From the NCBI RefSeq assembly GCF_000378145.1, contig NZ_KB899289.1, forward strand, positions 1 through 64,000: a stretch of DNA of 64,000 bases. Direction: 5' to 3'. A program made the translations under genes and the position numbers. The notes beneath the pieces were generated by a model. The model saw nothing but the letters and a program-made list of their open reading frames with translations. It had not been told where the DNA came from and searched no databases. The DNA is from Saccharibacillus kuerlensis DSM 22868 (GTDB lineage Bacteria; Bacillota; Bacilli; Paenibacillales; Paenibacillaceae). Each line of letters begins with the position of its first letter. Positions within the stretch are counted from its first letter, which is position 1. Below, piece by piece: positions 29,398 to 62,061 of the stretch.

Positions 29398-31746
29398 ATG
29401 GCCAAAATTAAGGTACTGGACGAACACGTTGCCAACCAGATTGCGGCCGGCGAAGTTGTGGAGCGGCCCGCTTCGGTCGTCAAGGAGTTGGTTGAAAATG
29501 CTATCGACGCCGGGGCGGCAAAGGTCGACGTATGGATCGAAGAAGGCGGTTTGTCTTCGATTCGTGTAACGGACAACGGATCGGGCATCGATCCGGAAGA
29601 CTGCGAGACGGCTTTTTACCGACATGCAACGAGCAAAATATCGGGAGGCCGGGATTTGTTCCAGATTACGAGCCTCGGCTTCCGCGGTGAGGCGCTGCCG
29701 AGTATCGCTTCGGTCTCCAAAGTCGAAGTGCTGACAGCCTGCGACGACGATGGAGCGGGCCGTAGGCTCGTCATTGAAGGCGGTACACTCAAGACAAACG
29801 AGGATGCTCCGGCTTCCCGGGGAACAGATTTCCGTGTTCGTGAGCTCTTTTACAATACACCGGCCCGGCTGAAATATATGAAAACGGTACAGACTGAGTT
29901 GGGCCATATTTCCGACTATATGTACCGAATGGCGCTATCTCATCCGGAGATCGCTTTTACACTGCGGCATAACGGCAATTCTCTGCTGCAAACGCTTGGC
30001 GGAGGGGATCTGCTTCAGGTTATTGCCGCCGTGTACGGGACAACGAGTGCCAAAGCGATGATTCCGCTGCAAAGTGAAGGCTTGGACTTTGCAGTCGGAG
30101 GATTCGTCAGTCTTCCGGACTTTACCCGCTCCAATCGAAGTGCGATTACGACGGTAGTTAATGGCCGCTTTATACGCAGTCATGTGCTGAATCAAGCCAT
30201 TATGCGTGCTTATCACACACTGCTGCCTGTCGGCCGTTATCCGTTGGTTGTGCTGAGTCTGGCTATGCATCCGTCGCTTGTCGACGTAAACGTGCACCCG
30301 GCAAAACTGGAAGTTCGCTTCAGCAAAGAAGCTGAACTGACGGCATTTGTGGAAGAAATGATTCGGGCTGCATTGTCCCGCGAAGTGCTAATTCCCAAAG
30401 CCGTCAATCAGCGTGTTGGTAAGAGCAATACCATGGTTCAGGAACAATTCCACTTTCCGAAACGGGAAGCGCTGATTGAAGAGCTTGCGGCAGCTCAGCC
30501 GCAGGATAAAGAGGCGCCGTCCGGCGGAAATGAGACGCTGGGCGGTGTAAGCTCCGGCAATGCAGGTGCAGAAGGACCAAACGCTGGAAGTGCAGGTACC
30601 GGTGAGGCCGGTTCGCAAGTGCCGAGCAGTGGAACTGCAGGCACCGGTAATCGTGGTGCCGAATTACTGCCCGGCGCCGGGCAGCCGGGCTCTGAAGCTG
30701 CCGCGCCTTGGGCAGGGCGCGCCGGAGAGTACGGCCGCCCTGCCGAGGCGGCCGGCCAAGAGCAGAGCCGCGCCTTGCCTGGCGCGGCAGGGGCTTCGGG
30801 CGCGCAGAACGCAGCACGCCCTGAGGCTGCCGCCGCCGATGGAGCGGCGGCGAATCCGCCAGCGGCCGCTTCGCAGGCCGCCGAACGGCGCGGCTCCGCC
30901 GCAGGCGGTGCGGAAGTGCCGGACGCCTTGAAGGCGTCCGCGTCCTACCCGGCCGCCGGCGGCGTGCGCGATCCGCTCCCGCAGCAAGTGCGGGAGCCGG
31001 GCCACGGCATGGGCTACACCGGAGGACGCAAAGCGTCCGGCGGTGCCGGCCGGGCGTCCTCGTCCGGTAATCCCGGCGCTCGGCAGCCGGCTCAGTCGGG
31101 ACAGAACGCTGCATTGGCACGCGCGGCTGAGCTTTACAGCCGGGGTGAAGTGCCCAAACGCCCTGCTTTTCCAGAAATGACGCTGATCGGCCAGCATCAC
31201 GGGACCTATCTGATCGCTCAGAACGATCAAGGATTGTATCTGATTGATCAGCATGCTGCGCATGAGCGAATCAATTACGAATATTATTACGAGAAATTCG
31301 GTCAGCCGGAATCGGCTTCACAAGAGCTGCTGCTGCCGATCACACTTGAGTTTACGTCGGCGGAGAGCGCCAAAATCCGCGATCGAATCGGCTGGTTCGA
31401 GCAGGCGGGCGTATATATGGAGCCTTTTGGAGGCCAAACGTTCCGCGTCACTGCCTACCCGCATTGGTTCCCGCCCGGCGAAGAGCAGTCCATTATCGAA
31501 GAGATGGCCGAGTGGGTGCTGAGCGAGCGTGCGATCGATCTGGCCAAACTGCGTGAGAAAGCGTCCACGCTCTGCTCCTGCAAAGCTTCGATCAAGGCCA
31601 ATCAACGTCTTAGCGACGTCCAGGCCCAGACGTTGATCGAACGGTTGGGGGAGTGCAAACAGCCTTATACTTGCCCTCATGGCAGACCAATTGTCGTATC
31701 TTTTTCTTCTTATGATTTGGAGAAATTGTTTAAAAGAGTGATGTAA
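29398..31746 (+). CDS. mutL: Mismatch repair endonuclease MutL with long low-complexity linker
   Basis: GHKL ATPase motifs lie in the first 110 residues (VKELVENAIDAGA, RVTDNGSGI, RHATSKI, GFRGEALPSIASV). The C-terminal endonuclease domain has LIDQHAAHERINYE (about 617), the metal-binding motif of nicking MutL proteins, plus CSCKASIKANQ and CPHGRPIVV. Between about 360 and 580 lies a Gly/Ala/Pro/Arg-rich linker encoded by unusually G+C-rich DNA (about 30500-31130), so the protein has 782 residues against a usual 620-680. AGGGG is eight bases before the ATG. A 150-base gap separates it from mutS. Confidence 0.95.
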   Translation: MAKIKVLDEHVANQIAAGEVVERPASVVKELVENAIDAGAAKVDVWIEEGGLSSIRVTDNGSGIDPEDCETAFYRHATSKISGGRDLFQITSLGFRGEALPSIASVSKVEVLTACDDDGAGRRLVIEGGTLKTNEDAPASRGTDFRVRELFYNTPARLKYMKTVQTELGHISDYMYRMALSHPEIAFTLRHNGNSLLQTLGGGDLLQVIAAVYGTTSAKAMIPLQSEGLDFAVGGFVSLPDFTRSNRSAITTVVNGRFIRSHVLNQAIMRAYHTLLPVGRYPLVVLSLAMHPSLVDVNVHPAKLEVRFSKEAELTAFVEEMIRAALSREVLIPKAVNQRVGKSNTMVQEQFHFPKREALIEELAAAQPQDKEAPSGGNETLGGVSSGNAGAEGPNAGSAGTGEAGSQVPSSGTAGTGNRGAELLPGAGQPGSEAAAPWAGRAGEYGRPAEAAGQEQSRALPGAAGASGAQNAARPEAAAADGAAANPPAAASQAAERRGSAAGGAEVPDALKASASYPAAGGVRDPLPQQVREPGHGMGYTGGRKASGGAGRASSSGNPGARQPAQSGQNAALARAAELYSRGEVPKRPAFPEMTLIGQHHGTYLIAQNDQGLYLIDQHAAHERINYEYYYEKFGQPESASQELLLPITLEFTSAESAKIRDRIGWFEQAGVYMEPFGGQTFRVTAYPHWFPPGEEQSIIEEMAEWVLSERAIDLAKLREKASTLCSCKASIKANQRLSDVQAQTLIERLGECKQPYTCPHGRPIVVSFSSYDLEKLFKRVM

Positions 31747-32478
31747 AAACCTTCCCCCAATCCTTAAGCGACTTTAATTAAATTTTCGAAACAAGACGCT
31801 TTAACTTGTTTCGAAAATGACCTGAGAGCGATCTAATCAACTGGGGGAAGGTTCTGCTTCATCGAATAAGCGCCCCAATCCTTAAGCGACTTTAATCTTC
31901 CTTGAACGGCCGCTTGCGGAAAGCCGTTCGCGCACCTGAGAGCGATCTAATCAATTGGGGGAAGGTTCTGCTTCATTGAACAAGCGCCCCAATCCTTAAG
32001 CGACTTTAATCTTCCTTGAACGGCCGCTTGCGGAAAGCCGTTCGCGCACCTGAGAGCGATCTAATCAATTGGGGGAAGGTTCTGCTTCATTGAACAAGCG
32101 TCCCAATCCTTAAGCGACTTTAATCTTCCTTGAACGGCCGCTTGCGGAAAGCCGTTCGCGCACCTAAGAGCGATCTAATCAATTGGGGGAAGGTTCTGCT
32201 TCATCGAATAAGTGCCCCAATCCTTAAGCGACTTCAACCGGGACAGTTTCGCATCATCGCTACGACAGCTTAACCTGCTTAATACTAACTCTAGCTGCGG
32301 CATCCGCCGCAGCTACGTTGCTGAAATGACAAAGCAGACGCCGCAGATGGATTTCCGGCGACGCTTGCTTTGTCATTTGGGCAGCGTAGATCTGTCTGAA
32401 TAATTTTCAAATGCAAATAACACCGCGCCGCAGACTGTATACGAATGCGGCATAAGCATGACCAAAGGAGAACGACCT
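31747..32478. other. Non-coding region of 0.7 kb rich in structured repeats
   Basis: No credible gene. The first 490 bases are the tandem structured units described separately. The remainder (32240-32400) contains two strong hairpins: 9-bp arms 32293-32301/32306-32314, and 12-bp arms 32324-32335/32367-32378 with an inner CGCCG/CGGCG stem. Confidence 0.7.
31748..32237. repeat. Tandem 114-bp structured repeat, four units plus a partial fifth
   Basis: The phrase CCCAATCCTTAAGCGACTT recurs at 31756, 31874, 31988, 32102 and 32216, spaced 118, 114, 114 and 114 bases. Each unit holds two similar direct motifs, CCTTAAGCGACTTTAAT and CCTGAGAGCGATCTAAT, on either side of a hairpin, with outer arms CCCCAAT/ATTGGGG. 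In unit 1 the hairpin is a 14-bp stem (31782-31795 with 31805-31818) and the outer arms a 12-bp perfect inverted repeat (31748-31759 with 31842-31853). In units 2-4 the hairpin is a different GAACGGC/GCCGTTC stem. Conserved internal loop with exchanged stems points to structured RNA or DNA. Confidence 0.85.
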
Positions 32479-33258
32479 ATGATGATTGTAACTACCGGCG
32501 ATTCGCCGGCCGAAGCTGAACTGCAGCGGGCGCGAAAGATCGCTGAGCAGGCAGGAATTCGGATTGTAACGCGCGGACGGACATCGATTCCCAAATTATT
32601 TTCGAAATACGGCGCTGATGCTGTTTTGATTGTCACACAAGGCAAGGTCAGGCTGTTCCGGGAAGATCAGCCTGTGCTGGAATACCATCCGAGCATGGGT
32701 TATGTTCGGGCCAAGCGCCTGCTTAAGGGCGAGCCCGATCCAATGATCGACGCTTCTCGGGCAGAACAAGGGGATTCCGTACTTGACTGTACGGCAGGAC
32801 TGGGTACCGACTCGCTCGTTTTTGCAGTCCGTGTCGGTCCTTCCGGTCTTGTGCGTGCATTGGAGGCTTCGCCTCAGCTTTCGGTTCTGCTGCGGGAAGG
32901 GCTGTCCAGTTACGAAGTTGAGAAATCTTCTGTTACCGAGGCTATGCGGCGTATCGAGGTTGTGAATACGGATCATTTGGAGTACTTGAAGTCGCTGCCG
33001 GACAATAGCTTCGATATCGTCTATTTCGACCCAATGTTCCGTAAGCCGGCTTACGATTCGTCGGCGATCTCGCCGCTGCGTACTTTTGCCGACGCTCGGG
33101 CTCTAAGCGAGGAATCGATTCGAGAAGCGGTACGTGTCGCTCGCAAGACAGTTGTATTGAAAGAGAAAAAAAGCAGCGGGGAAATGGAACGCCTAGGCTT
33201 TGTGCCGGACGGCCGAAACCACGCCAAAATTACGTACGGAGTGATTCGAATTGACTGA
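32479..33258 (+). CDS. Class I SAM-dependent methyltransferase (RsmJ/DUF548-like)
   Basis: 259 residues. After an N-terminal domain (about 1-85; IVTRGRTSIPKLFSKY) comes a Rossmann methyltransferase core: SVLDCTAGLGTDSLVFA is the SAM-binding motif I, FDIVYFDPMFRKPAY the motif IV with a DPMF active-site-like signature, as in rRNA guanine-N2 methyltransferases such as RsmJ. The substrate is therefore probably rRNA but this is inference. The ATG at 32479 follows AAAGGAG by eight bases. Its stop overlaps the TTG start of miaA. Confidence 0.82.
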   Translation: MMIVTTGDSPAEAELQRARKIAEQAGIRIVTRGRTSIPKLFSKYGADAVLIVTQGKVRLFREDQPVLEYHPSMGYVRAKRLLKGEPDPMIDASRAEQGDSVLDCTAGLGTDSLVFAVRVGPSGLVRALEASPQLSVLLREGLSSYEVEKSSVTEAMRRIEVVNTDHLEYLKSLPDNSFDIVYFDPMFRKPAYDSSAISPLRTFADARALSEESIREAVRVARKTVVLKEKKSSGEMERLGFVPDGRNHAKITYGVIRID

Positions 33259-34354: not shown

Positions 34355-34377
34355 AATGACAATTGGGGGTACCGGTT

Positions 34378-34623
34378 ATGAACAAATCCATTAATATTCA
34401 AGACACGTTCCTGAACCAACTGCGCAAAGAGAATATCCCTGCAACGGTTTATCTGACCAACGGTTTTCAAATTCGGGGCACGATTAAGGCGTTTGACAAC
34501 TTCACAATTGTGATCGACAGCGATGGACGTCAGCAAATGGTGTACAAACACGCCATTTCTACCTTTATGCCGCAGCGTAACGTATCCCTGACTCAGCAGG
34601 AAAGCACATTAGGAGAGCAGTAA
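34378..34623 (+). CDS. hfq: RNA chaperone Hfq
   Basis: 81 residues with the Sm1 motif [38 protein letters not shown], and Sm2 [10 protein letters not shown]. The conserved Gln in the first helix and the YKH pocket residues for RNA are present. The ATG at 34378 follows GGGGG; an in-frame TTG 15 bases earlier lies before that site. It follows miaA as in most bacteria. The C-terminal tail is short, as usual in Bacillota. Confidence 0.95.
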
Positions 34624-34863: not shown

Positions 34864-37656
34864 ATGCCTAATCCACAACTGAGCCGCTCCAATCGGACAA
34901 GCGGAGCAAGCGGCGGAGGTAACGGCGGCGGTAAAAAGCCTCCGGCAAAGAAGAAAGCTTCTTCCAAAAAGAAGAAAATCACAGGTAAACGCGTTTTTTG
35001 GACGTTATTTTTTACAGCTGCATTTGCAGTATTGTGTGCACTTGGCGGCTACTTGATCGTCACGGTAAACGGTGAAAGAATTCTTGCAGAAAATAAAGAT
35101 AAGATCGATATCAAAGCGCCGACAGTCATCTATGACCGTACAGGTGTACAGATTGGCGAAATCAAGATCCAGCGTGGTGAATCTGTAGAAGCACAGGATA
35201 TTCCGGAACTTGTTAAAGATGCTTTTGTAGCAACTGAAGATAAACGCTTCTTTGAACATTCCGGCGTCGATTTAAGATCGATTGGTCGGGCAGCAGTACG
35301 GGATATTATTGCACGTTCCGCCGTCGAAGGCGGAAGTACGATTACCCAGCAGCTCGCAAAAAACATTTTCCTGTCTGCAGACAAAACGTTTTTCCGCAAA
35401 GCGACGGAAGTGTCAATTGCACTCGCATTGGAACGGCAGTATTCCAAAGATGAAATTCTCGCCATGTATCTTAATCGGATTTCGTTCGGCGGTCAGTATT
35501 ACGGGATCAAGGCTGCTTCCGAGCGTTACTTTGGTAAAAGTGATCTGAATAAGCTGGAGCTGTGGGAAATCGCGACGCTTGCGGCGATGCCGAAGGCGCC
35601 AACACGATATAATCCGATCGCAAATCCGGATAAGTCGAAGGAACGCCGTGCTGTTGTACTCCAGCTGATGTATGAGCAGGGATATATTACGGAGGCAGAG
35701 CGTGACAAAGCGAAGGAAGTGGATTACAGCTATACACCGCCGGAAACGAAGGAAACTCATTATCGGGCGTTCATCGATTACGTGCTGCAGGAAGCCGAAG
35801 ATGCGACTGCGTTAACTGAAGATGACCTTAACCGCGGTGGTTACAAAATTTATACGTCGATGGACGCCAAAGCCCAGCAGACGCTGGAAGAAGCGTTCAA
35901 GGACGATTCGCTGTTCGAACAAAGTCCCGATGACCAGCCAGTACAGGCTTCGATGACCATTACAAATAACCAGAATGGTAGTATTGTAGCTATGCTGGGA
36001 GCTCGGAATTATCATAAAGGCGACTTTAACCGGGCGGTTAACAGCCGCAGGCAGCCGGGTTCGGCTTTCAAGCCGATCGCCTCTTATGCGCCGGCGCTTG
36101 AAACGGGTCAATTTACTACAAACTCTCAACTCAGCAACGAGCAGCAGAGCTTTGGGAACTACAGCCCGAAGAACTTGCACGGCTACAGCCAAAGCGTTTC
36201 GATGAAAGACGCTTTGTCGGAGTCGATGAATATCCCGGCCGTATGGCTGCTTAATCAGATTGGGATTGAAACCGGATATCAGTTTGCCAAATCTCTCGGC
36301 ATTCCATTAACCGAAGAAGATCGCAATCTGGCTCTTGCGCTTGGAGGTCTTCAGAAGGGAACCAATACACTGGAGATGGCTCAAGCTTACAATTCCTTCG
36401 CTAATGGAGGGGAATTTATCAGCGCATATGCAATCAAGTCGATCAAGGATTCCAATGAAGTTGAGATTTACAGTCGAATCGACAATAGGAAGCAGGTTAT
36501 GAGCCCTCAGACAGCTTACGATATGACAACCATGATGAAGAGTGTTGTCAGCGATGGTACAGGTCGCAAAGCCGATATCGGACGTCCGCTGGCCGGCAAG
36601 ACCGGTACAACGCAGAGCGGAATTGAAGGCAATAGCTCAAACCGGGACGTCTGGTTTGTAGGCTATACTCCCGAATGGACGGGAGCTGTATGGATGGGCT
36701 ATGACAAGCCTGATAGCACACACATGCTTAAGAACAGCAGCGGCTTGGCTGCCACCATGTTTGCACGCGTAATGAAAGAAGCGCTCGAAGGCGTTCCAGT
36801 TACCGACTTTAAAGCACCGGATGCTCCGGCTTCAGAGCCGGTAGAGGCTCCGGAACCTGTAGAACCGGTACAAACGGAACCGGTGGGAGCACCGACAGGG
36901 CTGGTCGCTTCCTACGATGTGGCCGGCGAGAGAGTCGCATTGTCCTGGCAGCCGGTAGATGGGCCGAATGTTCGTTACCGCCTTTACCGTCAGGAATCGT
37001 CCGAAGCTCAACCTTCTCTATTGACGGAAGGTTTGTCATCAGCATCGGTTACGGATCCAAGCGCCCTGTCGGGACTGACGTACAGTTATGCGGTAACGGC
37101 TTATCGGGCTGGTGAAGAGCCGATCGTCGAGTCTGCTGCTTCAAACACGGTCAGCCTGACTGTACCTGCAGATGATAATCTGGAAGAGGATTTGCCGGAA
37201 GAAACCGTTCCTTCGGAAGAAGAACCTGAAGAACCTGCTGAAGTCCCGGATGAAGAACCGGTAACACCGCCGGTAGATAACAGCGGGCAAAACGGAGACG
37301 CAAACGGGAGTCAAGGCAATGGCAATAACGGAAATGGTAATAACGGAAATGGTAACAACGGCAATGGCAATAATGGCAACGGCAACGGCAACGGCAACGG
37401 CAATGGTAATAACGGTAATGGCAATGGCAATAGCGGCGGCGATTCGACCGGCGGAGAGAATCCGGATTCGGGTACTGAAGCTCCCGCAGAAGGAGAAACT
37501 TCTGTACCCGGCACTGTTGTTCCAGACGCACCGGCGGATCAGACGCAGCCAGAGCCTGTGCCGGATTCGTCATCGGATCCAAGCGTTCAGACGACCGATC
37601 CAACTGCCGAGGACGGTGCCGCGGTAAATCCGGACGGAACGTCTACCCAGCCGTAA
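34864..37656 (+). CDS. Class A penicillin-binding protein (PBP1A type)
   Basis: Bifunctional peptidoglycan synthase. The order is a Lys/Gly-rich cytoplasmic tail, a membrane anchor (VFWTLFFTAAFAVLCALGGYLIV), a GT51 glycosyltransferase (EDKRFFEHSGVD; GGSTITQQLAKN), and a transpeptidase with Ser-x-x-Lys (GSAFKPI), SMN and KTGTT motifs. A fibronectin type III domain (about 680-765) follows, then a Glu/Pro-rich stretch, an Asn-Gly repeat and a Pro/Asp-rich end. The ATG at 34864 has AGGGG about 14 bases upstream; a TTG at 34801 without a site is the alternative. The 930 residues include about 270 beyond the catalytic core. Confidence 0.9.
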   Translation: MPNPQLSRSNRTSGASGGGNGGGKKPPAKKKASSKKKKITGKRVFWTLFFTAAFAVLCALGGYLIVTVNGERILAENKDKIDIKAPTVIYDRTGVQIGEIKIQRGESVEAQDIPELVKDAFVATEDKRFFEHSGVDLRSIGRAAVRDIIARSAVEGGSTITQQLAKNIFLSADKTFFRKATEVSIALALERQYSKDEILAMYLNRISFGGQYYGIKAASERYFGKSDLNKLELWEIATLAAMPKAPTRYNPIANPDKSKERRAVVLQLMYEQGYITEAERDKAKEVDYSYTPPETKETHYRAFIDYVLQEAEDATALTEDDLNRGGYKIYTSMDAKAQQTLEEAFKDDSLFEQSPDDQPVQASMTITNNQNGSIVAMLGARNYHKGDFNRAVNSRRQPGSAFKPIASYAPALETGQFTTNSQLSNEQQSFGNYSPKNLHGYSQSVSMKDALSESMNIPAVWLLNQIGIETGYQFAKSLGIPLTEEDRNLALALGGLQKGTNTLEMAQAYNSFANGGEFISAYAIKSIKDSNEVEIYSRIDNRKQVMSPQTAYDMTTMMKSVVSDGTGRKADIGRPLAGKTGTTQSGIEGNSSNRDVWFVGYTPEWTGAVWMGYDKPDSTHMLKNSSGLAATMFARVMKEALEGVPVTDFKAPDAPASEPVEAPEPVEPVQTEPVGAPTGLVASYDVAGERVALSWQPVDGPNVRYRLYRQESSEAQPSLLTEGLSSASVTDPSALSGLTYSYAVTAYRAGEEPIVESAASNTVSLTVPADDNLEEDLPEETVPSEEEPEEPAEVPDEEPVTPPVDNSGQNGDANGSQGNGNNGNGNNGNGNNGNGNNGNGNGNGNGNGNNGNGNGNSGGDSTGGENPDSGTEAPAEGETSVPGTVVPDAPADQTQPEPVPDSSSDPSVQTTDPTAEDGAAVNPDGTSTQP
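37315..37432 (+). repeat. Asn-Gly codon repeat in the PBP gene
   Basis: About 40 codons of alternating AAY and GGY, some with doubled AAY, encode NGN/NNG repeats. The DNA is a degenerate 6/15-base tandem repeat prone to length change. Confidence 0.8.
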
Positions 37657-60165: not shown

Positions 60166-62061
60166 ATGGACTGGATCAATCTGCTGCTAATCATCGCTAT
60201 TTTAGCCGGCATCTTGCTGTGGCTCCTTCTTATGCTTCGCAAAAATCCATCCGTTCGGGATATCCGCGAAATGGAATCGGAGCTGCTTACGATCGAGGCT
60301 CTGCAATCTTATACAACATCGGCAATCAATGAATTTACCAACGCAAACCTGCTGGATCTCGGTCTTTCGGCCGAAGAGTTCGAGCGTAGAAGAAACGTGG
60401 TTGCCGAGTTGAAAAGTTCGCTCAAGATGTGCAGCTCCGGAAGTTTGGCGGATAAAACTTACGTGAAGTCATTTATCACCGATCTGCTGCTGCGTGGAAA
60501 CGTGATAACGGAAACGACGATTGACCGAGTACTGCCTTTCGGAGACGAACGTCGGCTAAGCGATCAAGACAAATTCGAAATTTTGCTGCACATTTACAAA
60601 ATAGAGCATGGTGCGCAGGCTTTGAGTGTTTTGATCGAAAAATATCAATTGGCGGAATTAAAGTCGATTATCGAAAACGGCGAAACCGAGTCGTATATTA
60701 TTACATCTGAAGAAATCTGCGAAATTTACAGCCGAGAAGCGCCCAGATTGTCGTTTGAGGATAAATTGCAAATTGTTGTCCAGCGTCTCTACCAGCAGTA
60801 CAAAGGCTTTGGTCCAATTGATGAGGTGCGGGACCAGACGATCGACGGAGTGTCGGGTGGTGTATCGGGACTGCCGAGTGACATGCAGGAGACTGAACAT
60901 GAGATCGAACTGATGCGTTCTATGCGGGAAAAGCGACCAAGAGGATGTGACAGCATCTGGATTTTTTATCGAGGCAAATCGATTAGGCTGGCTTTTCTTG
61001 GCTTTGGCAGCGACTTGGAACTTAAGCGGGTCTGCCAGAATATTTATAAATTTGGCAGCCCAGGGCAGTTATCCGAAGCGAAAGCTTATATGGTCAATGA
61101 AATGCAGGACGGATCGCGTGTCGTCGTTGTACGCCCCCCTTTTTCCGAAAGCTGGGCTTTCTTCGTTCGCAAGTTTGATCTGCCCAATCTCAGCTTGGAG
61201 CGTCTGTTGGCTTCCGATCGGGTTAGCGGCGCCGAGCTTCCGATGAAGATGCTGGATTATTTGATGAAGGGTGCTCAGGTCACGGCAGTAACGGGCGAGC
61301 AGGGTTCCGGTAAAACGACACTGCTGATGGCAATGGTCAAGTCGATTTACGGTACGTTCAATCTTCGGATTCAGGAACTGGCGTTTGAGCTGCATCTGCG
61401 CAGGTTGTATCCGGAACGCAATACTCTTGCTTTTCGCGAAACGGATAAGATCAGCGGCCAAGAAGGGTTGGATTTGCAGAAAAAGACGGATGGTACAGTC
61501 AATATTCTTGGCGAAGTGGCGACCGATCCGGTAGCAGCCTGGGCGGTACAAATGTCCCAAGTAGCAAGCAAATTCACCGTTTTCAGTCATCATGCCAAAA
61601 CGATGAAGGATTTGATCTGGTCGCTGCGCAACTCGCTGCTCAAGACAGGAACGTTCCAGAACGAGAGAATTGCGGAGGAGCAGGTGGCGAGTGTGATCGC
61701 ATTTGATGTCCACTTGGAAAAGGAGAGAGACGGAACCCGTTATATTGAGCGTTTGACCGAGTGTGTAGTGCTCGATCCGGACGAAGAATCTTTTGCTGAA
61801 CTTGGACGCCGCCTGGAAGGGGATCTGGACGAAGCTTCCGCGCTAAACATTTTGGCACAGGCAAATTTGAACTACTATCGCCGGCTGACCGGACGAACAT
61901 TCGAAGCGCGTAATATTATCGAATTCCGTGACGGTGTTTATGTTCCTGTTCACCGTCCTACTCCAAGGAAGGTAGAATTGATGGCCGGTAATATGTCGAG
62001 AGAAGACGCAGCGGATTTTCGGGCTTTTCTGGACCGGTACTGGGGGAGTGAAGCGACATGA
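60166..62061 (+). CDS. CpaF/TadA-type secretion ATPase with N-terminal membrane segment
   Basis: 631 residues. A hydrophobic N-terminal segment (LLLIIAILAGILLWLLLML, about 5-23) is followed by a helical region, then the CpaF domain: VRPPFSESWAFFVRKF, Walker A TGEQGSGKTTLL (about 376), Walker B NILGEVATDP and a His box FTVFSHHAKT. It powers pilin or substrate assembly. A membrane anchor is unusual, since CpaF proteins are normally soluble. The ATG at 60166 follows the upstream stop by three bases and its own stop overlaps the next gene as ATGA. Confidence 0.88.
   Translation: MDWINLLLIIAILAGILLWLLLMLRKNPSVRDIREMESELLTIEALQSYTTSAINEFTNANLLDLGLSAEEFERRRNVVAELKSSLKMCSSGSLADKTYVKSFITDLLLRGNVITETTIDRVLPFGDERRLSDQDKFEILLHIYKIEHGAQALSVLIEKYQLAELKSIIENGETESYIITSEEICEIYSREAPRLSFEDKLQIVVQRLYQQYKGFGPIDEVRDQTIDGVSGGVSGLPSDMQETEHEIELMRSMREKRPRGCDSIWIFYRGKSIRLAFLGFGSDLELKRVCQNIYKFGSPGQLSEAKAYMVNEMQDGSRVVVVRPPFSESWAFFVRKFDLPNLSLERLLASDRVSGAELPMKMLDYLMKGAQVTAVTGEQGSGKTTLLMAMVKSIYGTFNLRIQELAFELHLRRLYPERNTLAFRETDKISGQEGLDLQKKTDGTVNILGEVATDPVAAWAVQMSQVASKFTVFSHHAKTMKDLIWSLRNSLLKTGTFQNERIAEEQVASVIAFDVHLEKERDGTRYIERLTECVVLDPDEESFAELGRRLEGDLDEASALNILAQANLNYYRRLTGRTFEARNIIEFRDGVYVPVHRPTPRKVELMAGNMSREDAADFRAFLDRYWGSEAT

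Follow-up and report, generated by a model that had tools for sequence, protein, structure and literature searches.

Organization of the Array Behind mutL

The window analyzed here is a stretch of 64,000 nucleotides from Saccharibacillus kuerlensis DSM 22868, in which mutS, mutL, an RsmJ-like methyltransferase gene, miaA, and hfq follow one another on the same strand. Between mutL and the next gene lies an array of four units of ~114 bp and a truncated fifth (Table 1), both the array and its location being as described in the initial annotation. Tandem Repeats Finder run on the window reports 31820-32234 with a period of 114, 3.6 copies, 97% matches, and a score of 774. The region from 31748 to 32238 is free of protein-coding genes, as no open reading frame of at least 80 amino acids in the ORF list overlaps it. 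The product of the gene behind the array matches RsmJ weakly (E 4.8e-9, 35.9 bits), far under the model cut-off of 422.

Table 1. Positions of the array, its parts, and the neighboring genes in the window
Feature	Position	Strand	Remarks
mutL	29398..31746	+	NCBIfam MutL, ORF list; stop codon 31744-31746, array starts directly behind
Unit 1	31748..31853	+	outer stem 12 bp, arms 31748-31759 / 31842-31853; inner stem 14 bp, 31782-31795 / 31805-31818
Unit 1 motif 1	31762-31778	+	
Unit 1 motif 2	31821-31837	+	
Unit 1 apical loop	31796-31804	+	9 nt, ACGCTTTAA
Unit 2	31873..31967	+	outer stem 7 bp, CCCCAAT/ATTGGGG; inner stem 7 bp, GAACGGC/GCCGTTC; both motifs
Unit 3	31987..32081	+	almost identical to unit 2; same 7-bp inner stem
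Unit 4	32101..32195	+	like units 2 and 3, few changes; same 7-bp inner stem
Fifth copy, truncated	32215..32238	+	CCCCAAT and motif 1 only
SAM-dependent methyltransferase (RsmJ-like) gene	32458..33258	+	weak RsmJ match, ORF list
miaA	33251-34354	+	MiaA match above model cut-off
hfq	34363-34623	+	Hfq match above model cut-off

Two motifs, motif 1 (AGCGACTT) and motif 2 (GGGAGCGATT..AATC), flank an inner hairpin with the apical loop AYGGTTCAR. Motif 1 starts at 31762, 31880, 31994, and 32108, and again at 32222 with two mismatches. With up to three mismatches allowed, the window holds six matches to motif 1 (0.12 in shuffles), the sixth lying outside the array on the opposite strand at 60657, while motif 2 has four matches (0.15 in shuffles). 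These counts, far above those of shuffled sequences, bear out the earlier description of motifs on both sides of a hairpin, and so does the observation that unit 1 carries a different hairpin sequence from units 2-4 with the pairing kept (14 bp versus GAACGGC/GCCGTTC). The outer and inner arms do pair as had been proposed, and on each of the two strands unit 1 folds better than every one of 200 shuffles (z -6.9 and -6.4). Units 2-4, however, fold no better than shuffles on both strands (z +1.1 to +1.5), and the whole 521-nt array folds slightly better than its shuffles (z -1.3).

A scan of 31600-32600 gave neither a promoter- nor a terminator-like pattern, in a region where shuffles themselves yield just 0.6 and 1.5. 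An intrinsic terminator was set aside as no T run was seen, and readings of the array as CRISPR-like or as integron attC sites were set aside as well. Rfam 15 gave nothing at gathering score in the window, the best match at a relaxed threshold having an E of 1, in agreement with the initial annotation, which had matched the array to no known RNA. Just 3' of the array, at 32313-32389, there is a big imperfect hairpin with 32-nt arms (81% complementary) and a 13-nt spacer, possibly another repeat. Elsewhere in the window, a penicillin-binding-protein-like gene contains short tandem repeats at its 3' end (37318-37437), which would encode an N/G-rich tail.

A Dispersed Family of Hairpin Elements

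The initial annotation had looked to homologous units outside the window, and these exist. BLAST and covariance-model searches place the array units in a dispersed family of hairpin elements of ~110-118 bp found in both genera. With unit 1 as the BLAST query, relatives appear in 9 of 98 genomes, namely its own and eight other Saccharibacillus genomes, and no match was found in the 82 genomes outside Saccharibacillus. Its own genome holds one diverged paralogue on another contig. The matches in the relatives sit behind mutL except in G013, where the contig ends inside the array and the methyltransferase gene comes after it. Pattern matches outside Saccharibacillus were chance-like and were rejected; the gap limit of the pattern also made it miss the paralogue in the own genome.

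A first covariance model (R1), built from 13 units, recovers further loci, often tandem, in the same nine genomes. It matches unit 2 at 31865-31967 (E 9.3e-18, the unit being itself part of R1) and unit 1 at 31747-31853 (E 5.5e-32, and 1.1e-20 with the second model, R2, both of which contain unit 1). Strong R1 matches occur in at least 9 of 16 Saccharibacillus genomes, and four others give weak ones with E values from 0.02 to 4.3; the one inspected, in G005, is not family-like. Among the candidates scored with R1, G014 and six further Saccharibacillus genomes have no convincing copy. R2, built from the 45 selected units of alignment A3, was run on 295 genomes of the bacterial family with 12 candidates scored per genome. 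At E<=0.01 it reaches at least 47 of them, spread over at least 6 of 19 genera; at least 31 of these 47 genomes belong to one genus, Paenibacillus. Ten chosen genomes carry 1 to 20 R2 matches each among the candidates scored. The covariance models thus reached further genera, where BLAST with unit 1 had found nothing outside Saccharibacillus.

The family model also matches two plasmid records of Paenibacillus polymyxa, and a phage search with it found none. The only viral contig stretch, L310, reads as coding sequence matched by chance. A wider contig search returned nine stretches, of which all except L177 were inspected; one from an archaeal MAG (L179) is chance-like. Another, from an uncultured Brevibacillus MAG (L178), holds one family copy, for which a binning error is possible.

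The Paenibacillus Copies Form a MITE

In Paenibacillus the family is a MITE with the ends GAG..CTG. The left ends of the copies read GAGCATTTTGCAT or GAGGATTTTGCA and the right ends ATGCAAAATGCTG or similar. A terminal inverted repeat, SAGSATTTTGCA, is present, with 50 forward and 50 reverse matches in genome G282 and 0 in the control. Exact 4-bp target duplications flank the element at 17 of 59 sites, where 1.7 are expected and the largest of 5000 shuffles gives 7; at 42 of the 59 sites, against 11.1 in shuffles, at least three of the four letters match. Only this length and the exact boundary give the signal: duplications of 5 bp give 1 site, and frames shifted by 1-3 give 3, 0, and 1. These counts cover Paenibacillus and two related genera only and rest on 59 distinct sites out of 73, taken from 67 copies minus L142, L166, and L209-L211, plus 11 solo or short copies, with shared sites removed.

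One locus preserves an empty site: G334 reads TATGAATAAAGATG where G282 has ATAA, a 118-bp element, and ATAA. Three other relatives carry near this locus a palindrome of ~20 bp like GAGGATTTTGCAAAATCCTT, with the apparent duplication GAAT. In G282, exact 20-bp palindromes GAGGATTTTGCAAAATCCTG occur at eight places (positions 301-320 of L291-L298, in this form or as the complement). In two cases an exact 4-bp duplication flanks the palindrome, which may be the element in its most reduced form. In a limited search, which covered solo left ends read over ~200-260 nt and one 5.1-kb pair of ends, no autonomous transposon partner was found. It turned up truncated copies and 20-bp palindromes, and the ORFs listed for one candidate include no transposase.

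The duplications and the empty site define a mobile repeat, to which an array of the riboswitch or ribozyme kind, brought up as a comparison in the initial annotation, is unsuited. The orientation of the 67 copies in Paenibacillus and the two related genera is mixed: both neighbors are sense in 30 cases and antisense in 15, with 15 divergent and 7 convergent pairs, as judged from crude gene calls and with some sites common between species.

Covarying Stems and an Unpaired Core

Of the 52 model-matched Saccharibacillus rows, 45 entered the stem analysis, leaving out two rows of L131, L133, L135, the truncated second unit of L122, and partial opposite-strand rows in L111 and L127. Addition of the second L102 unit, two window units, and ten units from the mutL locus brought the set to 58, with 56 distinct inner stems. 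The outer and inner stems vary by locus and yet pair in 85.6% of 911 cells, compared to 55.7% in shuffles and 31-59% in slid versions, and 0 of 500 shuffles reach the observed share. The view of the initial annotation that changes in the arms preserve pairing is therefore upheld. The covariation score of 0.676 likewise exceeds that of shuffles (0.206) and slid versions (0.10-0.29), an excess that is flattered, as the structure was partly chosen from the same alignment. Two other measures are poor discriminators: all 21 stem pairs have changed on both sides, with 19.6 in shuffles and 89 of 500 as high, and the number of further pair types is equaled in 19 of 500. The sequence conserved in both genera is the unpaired part: AATCCnnnAGCGACTT precedes the inner stem, AYGGTTCAR forms its 9-nt apical loop, and GGGAGCGATTnnAATCGAAT follows it, with exceptions in single copies. 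Two 148-nt copies, L158 and L164, show an apparent extra hairpin in the inner hairpin region.

The 56 distinct units contain 1,446 Watson-Crick, 24 G-U, and 11 A-C stem pairs, with G-U against A-C at 13 versus 5 in the inner and 11 versus 6 in the outer stem, an excess favored by the stem finder, which accepted G-T but not A-C pairs. This lean to G-U weakly favors the + strand as RNA. At ~1.6% of stem pairs, G-U is nevertheless rarer than we would expect for stems evolving stepwise under RNA selection. Among changed stem pairs in 14 chosen orthologue pairs, 7 are double Watson-Crick changes, where a rough estimate expects fewer than one, alongside 11 one-sided changes to G-U, 7 one-sided changes to A-C, 10 other one-sided changes, and 5 double unpaired ones. 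One-sided steps thus do occur, as counted in these orthologue pairs. Taken together with the arms that contain host sequence, the pair types suggest that template switching contributes to stem pairing. Since G-U is rare and arms contain host sequence, we do not take the covariation as proof of RNA. The structured RNA proposed initially is supported in part, by the homologous units elsewhere and by arm changes that keep the pairing; the covarying stems are not decisive, given the rare G-U pairs and the host coding sequence in some arms.

Gene Ends and Probable Rewriting of the Arms in Saccharibacillus

The ends of the Saccharibacillus copies pair but are locus-specific. Apart from mutL, 35 arrays were grouped by eye into eight locus families, and five further arrays added two to family H and made up a tenth family, the mutL locus included in this count. 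Six of the ten families sit at a same-strand gene end. The five besides mutL were picked because they follow genes. All of their 25 arrays share the strand of that gene, whose stop codon, sought from 30 nt ahead of the 5' arm up to 6 nt past the end of the arm, starts -8 to +10 nt from the arm in every case and falls inside it in 9. In the other four families (F, H, I, and the tenth), which comprise 15 arrays, there is no clear gene end upstream, or at most a tiny reading frame that may be one. The tenth locus (L327, L330, and L331 from G006, G011, and G015) lies behind a common stretch, TTTTATAAAAAATATAACACCTTTGTACG, and not at a gene end.

Two loci illustrate how arms and coding ends overlap. 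The gene ending in EYLV closes with GTC TAG in G002, G003, and G009, where these letters are part of the arm GTCTAGTCAA; in four other species it closes with GTA, GTG, or GTT and then TAA, and the arm starts behind the stop. At the second locus, next to what we take from its sequence to be a PAQR gene, G000 has the 5' arm CCTGCTTCCTTAA and the 3' arm TTAAGGAAGCAGG, and G008 uses the part TTCCTTAA. Six clade members lacking the element end in CTGCTGCCTTAA, CTGCTGCCGTAA, or CTGCTGCCTTGA, and G011 and G013, in which a different arm follows the stop, in CTGCTTCCTTAA. A single synonymous difference, CTT in place of CTG, is common to all four carriers. As element-free relatives have this coding end, it existed without the element apart from the CTT, and the 3' arm resembles that host coding end copied in reverse; alternatively, the arm of the element rewrote a host codon. 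A locus with such a near-reverse-copy arm suggests template switching, and arms holding host coding sequence together with its reverse complement suggest copying at the DNA level. Pairing would then be regained in one step, because one arm or host sequence is copied into the other arm. We regard this rewriting of arms as supported, not proven, by the sequence comparisons.

Tandem units have been gained, lost, or truncated among the Saccharibacillus loci. Downstream of position 3112 in L114 there are mini-units with an outer stem (AGGTTTGTCCGA-like) and no inner hairpin, whose arms resemble the unit of another species at the same locus, L098. Behind several arrays (L101, L110, L115, L127, and L132) recur the stretches AAATGTTGACCTT..GCTCACATTT or AAAATGTTGAC, which look like another repeat family.

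In lying behind stop codons the element is reminiscent of integron attC sites, which raises the question of a site acting at the DNA level, be it a protein-binding site, a cruciform, or an attC-like recombination site. The near-perfect Watson-Crick arms and the AGCGA found in direct orientation on both sides would fit such a site, whereas the 4-bp target duplications suit cut-and-paste insertion, and we judge this explanation highly unlikely.

Origin and Conservation of the mutL Copy

In a midpoint-rooted tree of part of mutL, presence of the array requires one change, placed after G014 had branched off (support 97/98). The array was kept in 8 of 8 descendants with mutL in view, plus G013. At this locus the 5' outer arm is the most conserved part, with a mean pairwise identity of 0.98 over eight species; motif 2 and the inner hairpin each reach 0.83, motif 1 reaches 0.72, and the 3' outer arm 0.67, a value that includes G008, which has lost that arm at mutL. 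The yardsticks are lower, at 0.62 for codon position 3 of mutL and 0.55 for the sequence 130-260 nt behind the stop. Conservation of this kind is not what template switching should produce, and it makes a function of the mutL copy probable. Its location between two co-directional genes makes this function point to the mRNA, and the copy seems to have been kept by selection, acting perhaps in messenger RNA.

The same data bear on the idea of an inert fossil, in which the arms are complementary only through palindrome-templated DNA synthesis and the host gains nothing. Rare G-U and rare A-C pairs, arms that contain host coding ends, the gain, loss, and truncation of tandem units, and the seven Saccharibacillus genomes without a convincing copy among the candidates scored would all agree with it. 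However, the mutL copy persists in every descendant examined and is more conserved than codon position 3, and template switching should not protect the unpaired motifs common to two genera. We consider an inert fossil unlikely.

At the other extreme, the element could be a structured regulatory RNA, either a cis element or an sRNA, with copies that form a regulon and conserved loops that serve to bind a protein or ligand. Conserved unpaired motifs with covarying stems, the gene-end location in sense orientation of six Saccharibacillus families, the slow change at mutL, and the excess of G-U over A-C, favored as it is by the stem finder, speak for this. Against it stand mobility with target duplications, mixed orientation in Paenibacillus, the low share of G-U, and the lack of an Rfam match. 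The neighboring genes also have no evident common theme; mutL was identified by NCBIfam, and those at other loci appear from their sequences to include CsoR, CopZ, and PAQR. A regulon of this kind is, in our estimate, improbable.

The behavior of the family can be best explained by a joint reading that we hold to be fairly probable: copies of a MITE were duplicated in tandem, the copy at mutL was recruited, and its stem-loop affects the mRNA. The array would consist of old, tandemly duplicated MITE copies, each likely forming a rod made of an outer stem, an asymmetric internal loop with the two motifs, an inner stem, and the 9-nt apical loop. Its arms may have been partly rewritten by template switching, with one arm or neighboring host sequence copied into the other. 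The mutL copy and the other gene-end copies would be transcribed with the upstream gene, and we infer, by analogy, that the co-transcribed stem-loop may influence processing or stability of the mRNA, at mutL between cistrons, as NEMIS and ERIC do. Arguments against this reading are the mixed orientation in Paenibacillus, the four families without a clear gene end, the poor folding of units 2-4, the loss of the outer 3' arm in G008, and the lower conservation of motif 1 and the 3' outer arm at mutL. Conserved inner motifs with varying ends are also not expected of a plain MITE. In a more tentative variant, which we think rather unlikely, template switching after insertion at a gene end rebuilds the outer stem from the last codons and the stop of the host, giving each copy arms of its own, and the unpaired core is selected as a portable RNA domain that works at gene ends.

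Under the joint reading, recruitment of a MITE into a gene cluster, here mutS-mutL-methyltransferase-miaA-hfq, can be put to the test with the mutL copy. The stems can run across the stop codon of a gene, and the ends diverge while pairing and the unpaired core persist. Should host sequence indeed serve to rebuild the arms, then covariation, on which RNA structures are usually argued, can also have its source in the DNA and calls for careful reading.

Comparison with Known Systems

No description of the element was found in a search of mainly open-access literature, and one may exist elsewhere. Mitochondrial double-hairpin elements are small mobile hairpins of organelles, to which the element is likened by description.

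Among bacterial repeats, bcr1-bcr18 of the Bacillus cereus group are similar in being interspersed 100-400-bp repeats in Firmicutes. In PMC3446304 and PMC6542083, bcr1-3 are described as MITE-like, bcr10 and bcr18 have a conserved secondary structure, and 84 of 165 and 62 of 155 copies lie in mRNAs in two strains. The bcr repeats are co-transcribed, and bcr3 correlates with longer half-life, a correlation on which the authors are cautious (PMC3446304). Mobility of bcr is tied to a TTTAT motif (PMC6542083), whereas the 4-bp duplications found here vary; the two are set apart by description.

NEMIS/Correia, ERIC, and RUP resemble the element in their size of ~100-200 bp and mostly in their inverted repeats and target duplications. 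According to PMC2229807, transcripts of NEMIS/ERIC-type elements form long stem-loops able to affect adjacent mRNAs, in the case of NEMIS via RNase III. Most of these MITEs carry TA ends, whereas the element has locus-varying arms and conserved internal and apical loops. REP sequences are likewise extragenic palindromes, but are described in PMC3733652 as 20-40 bp long and tagged GTAG or CGTC, compared to ~110 bp here. A hairpin-forming mobile repeat is thus of a known kind; locus-private arms, stop-spanning stems, and a conserved unpaired core set this element apart.
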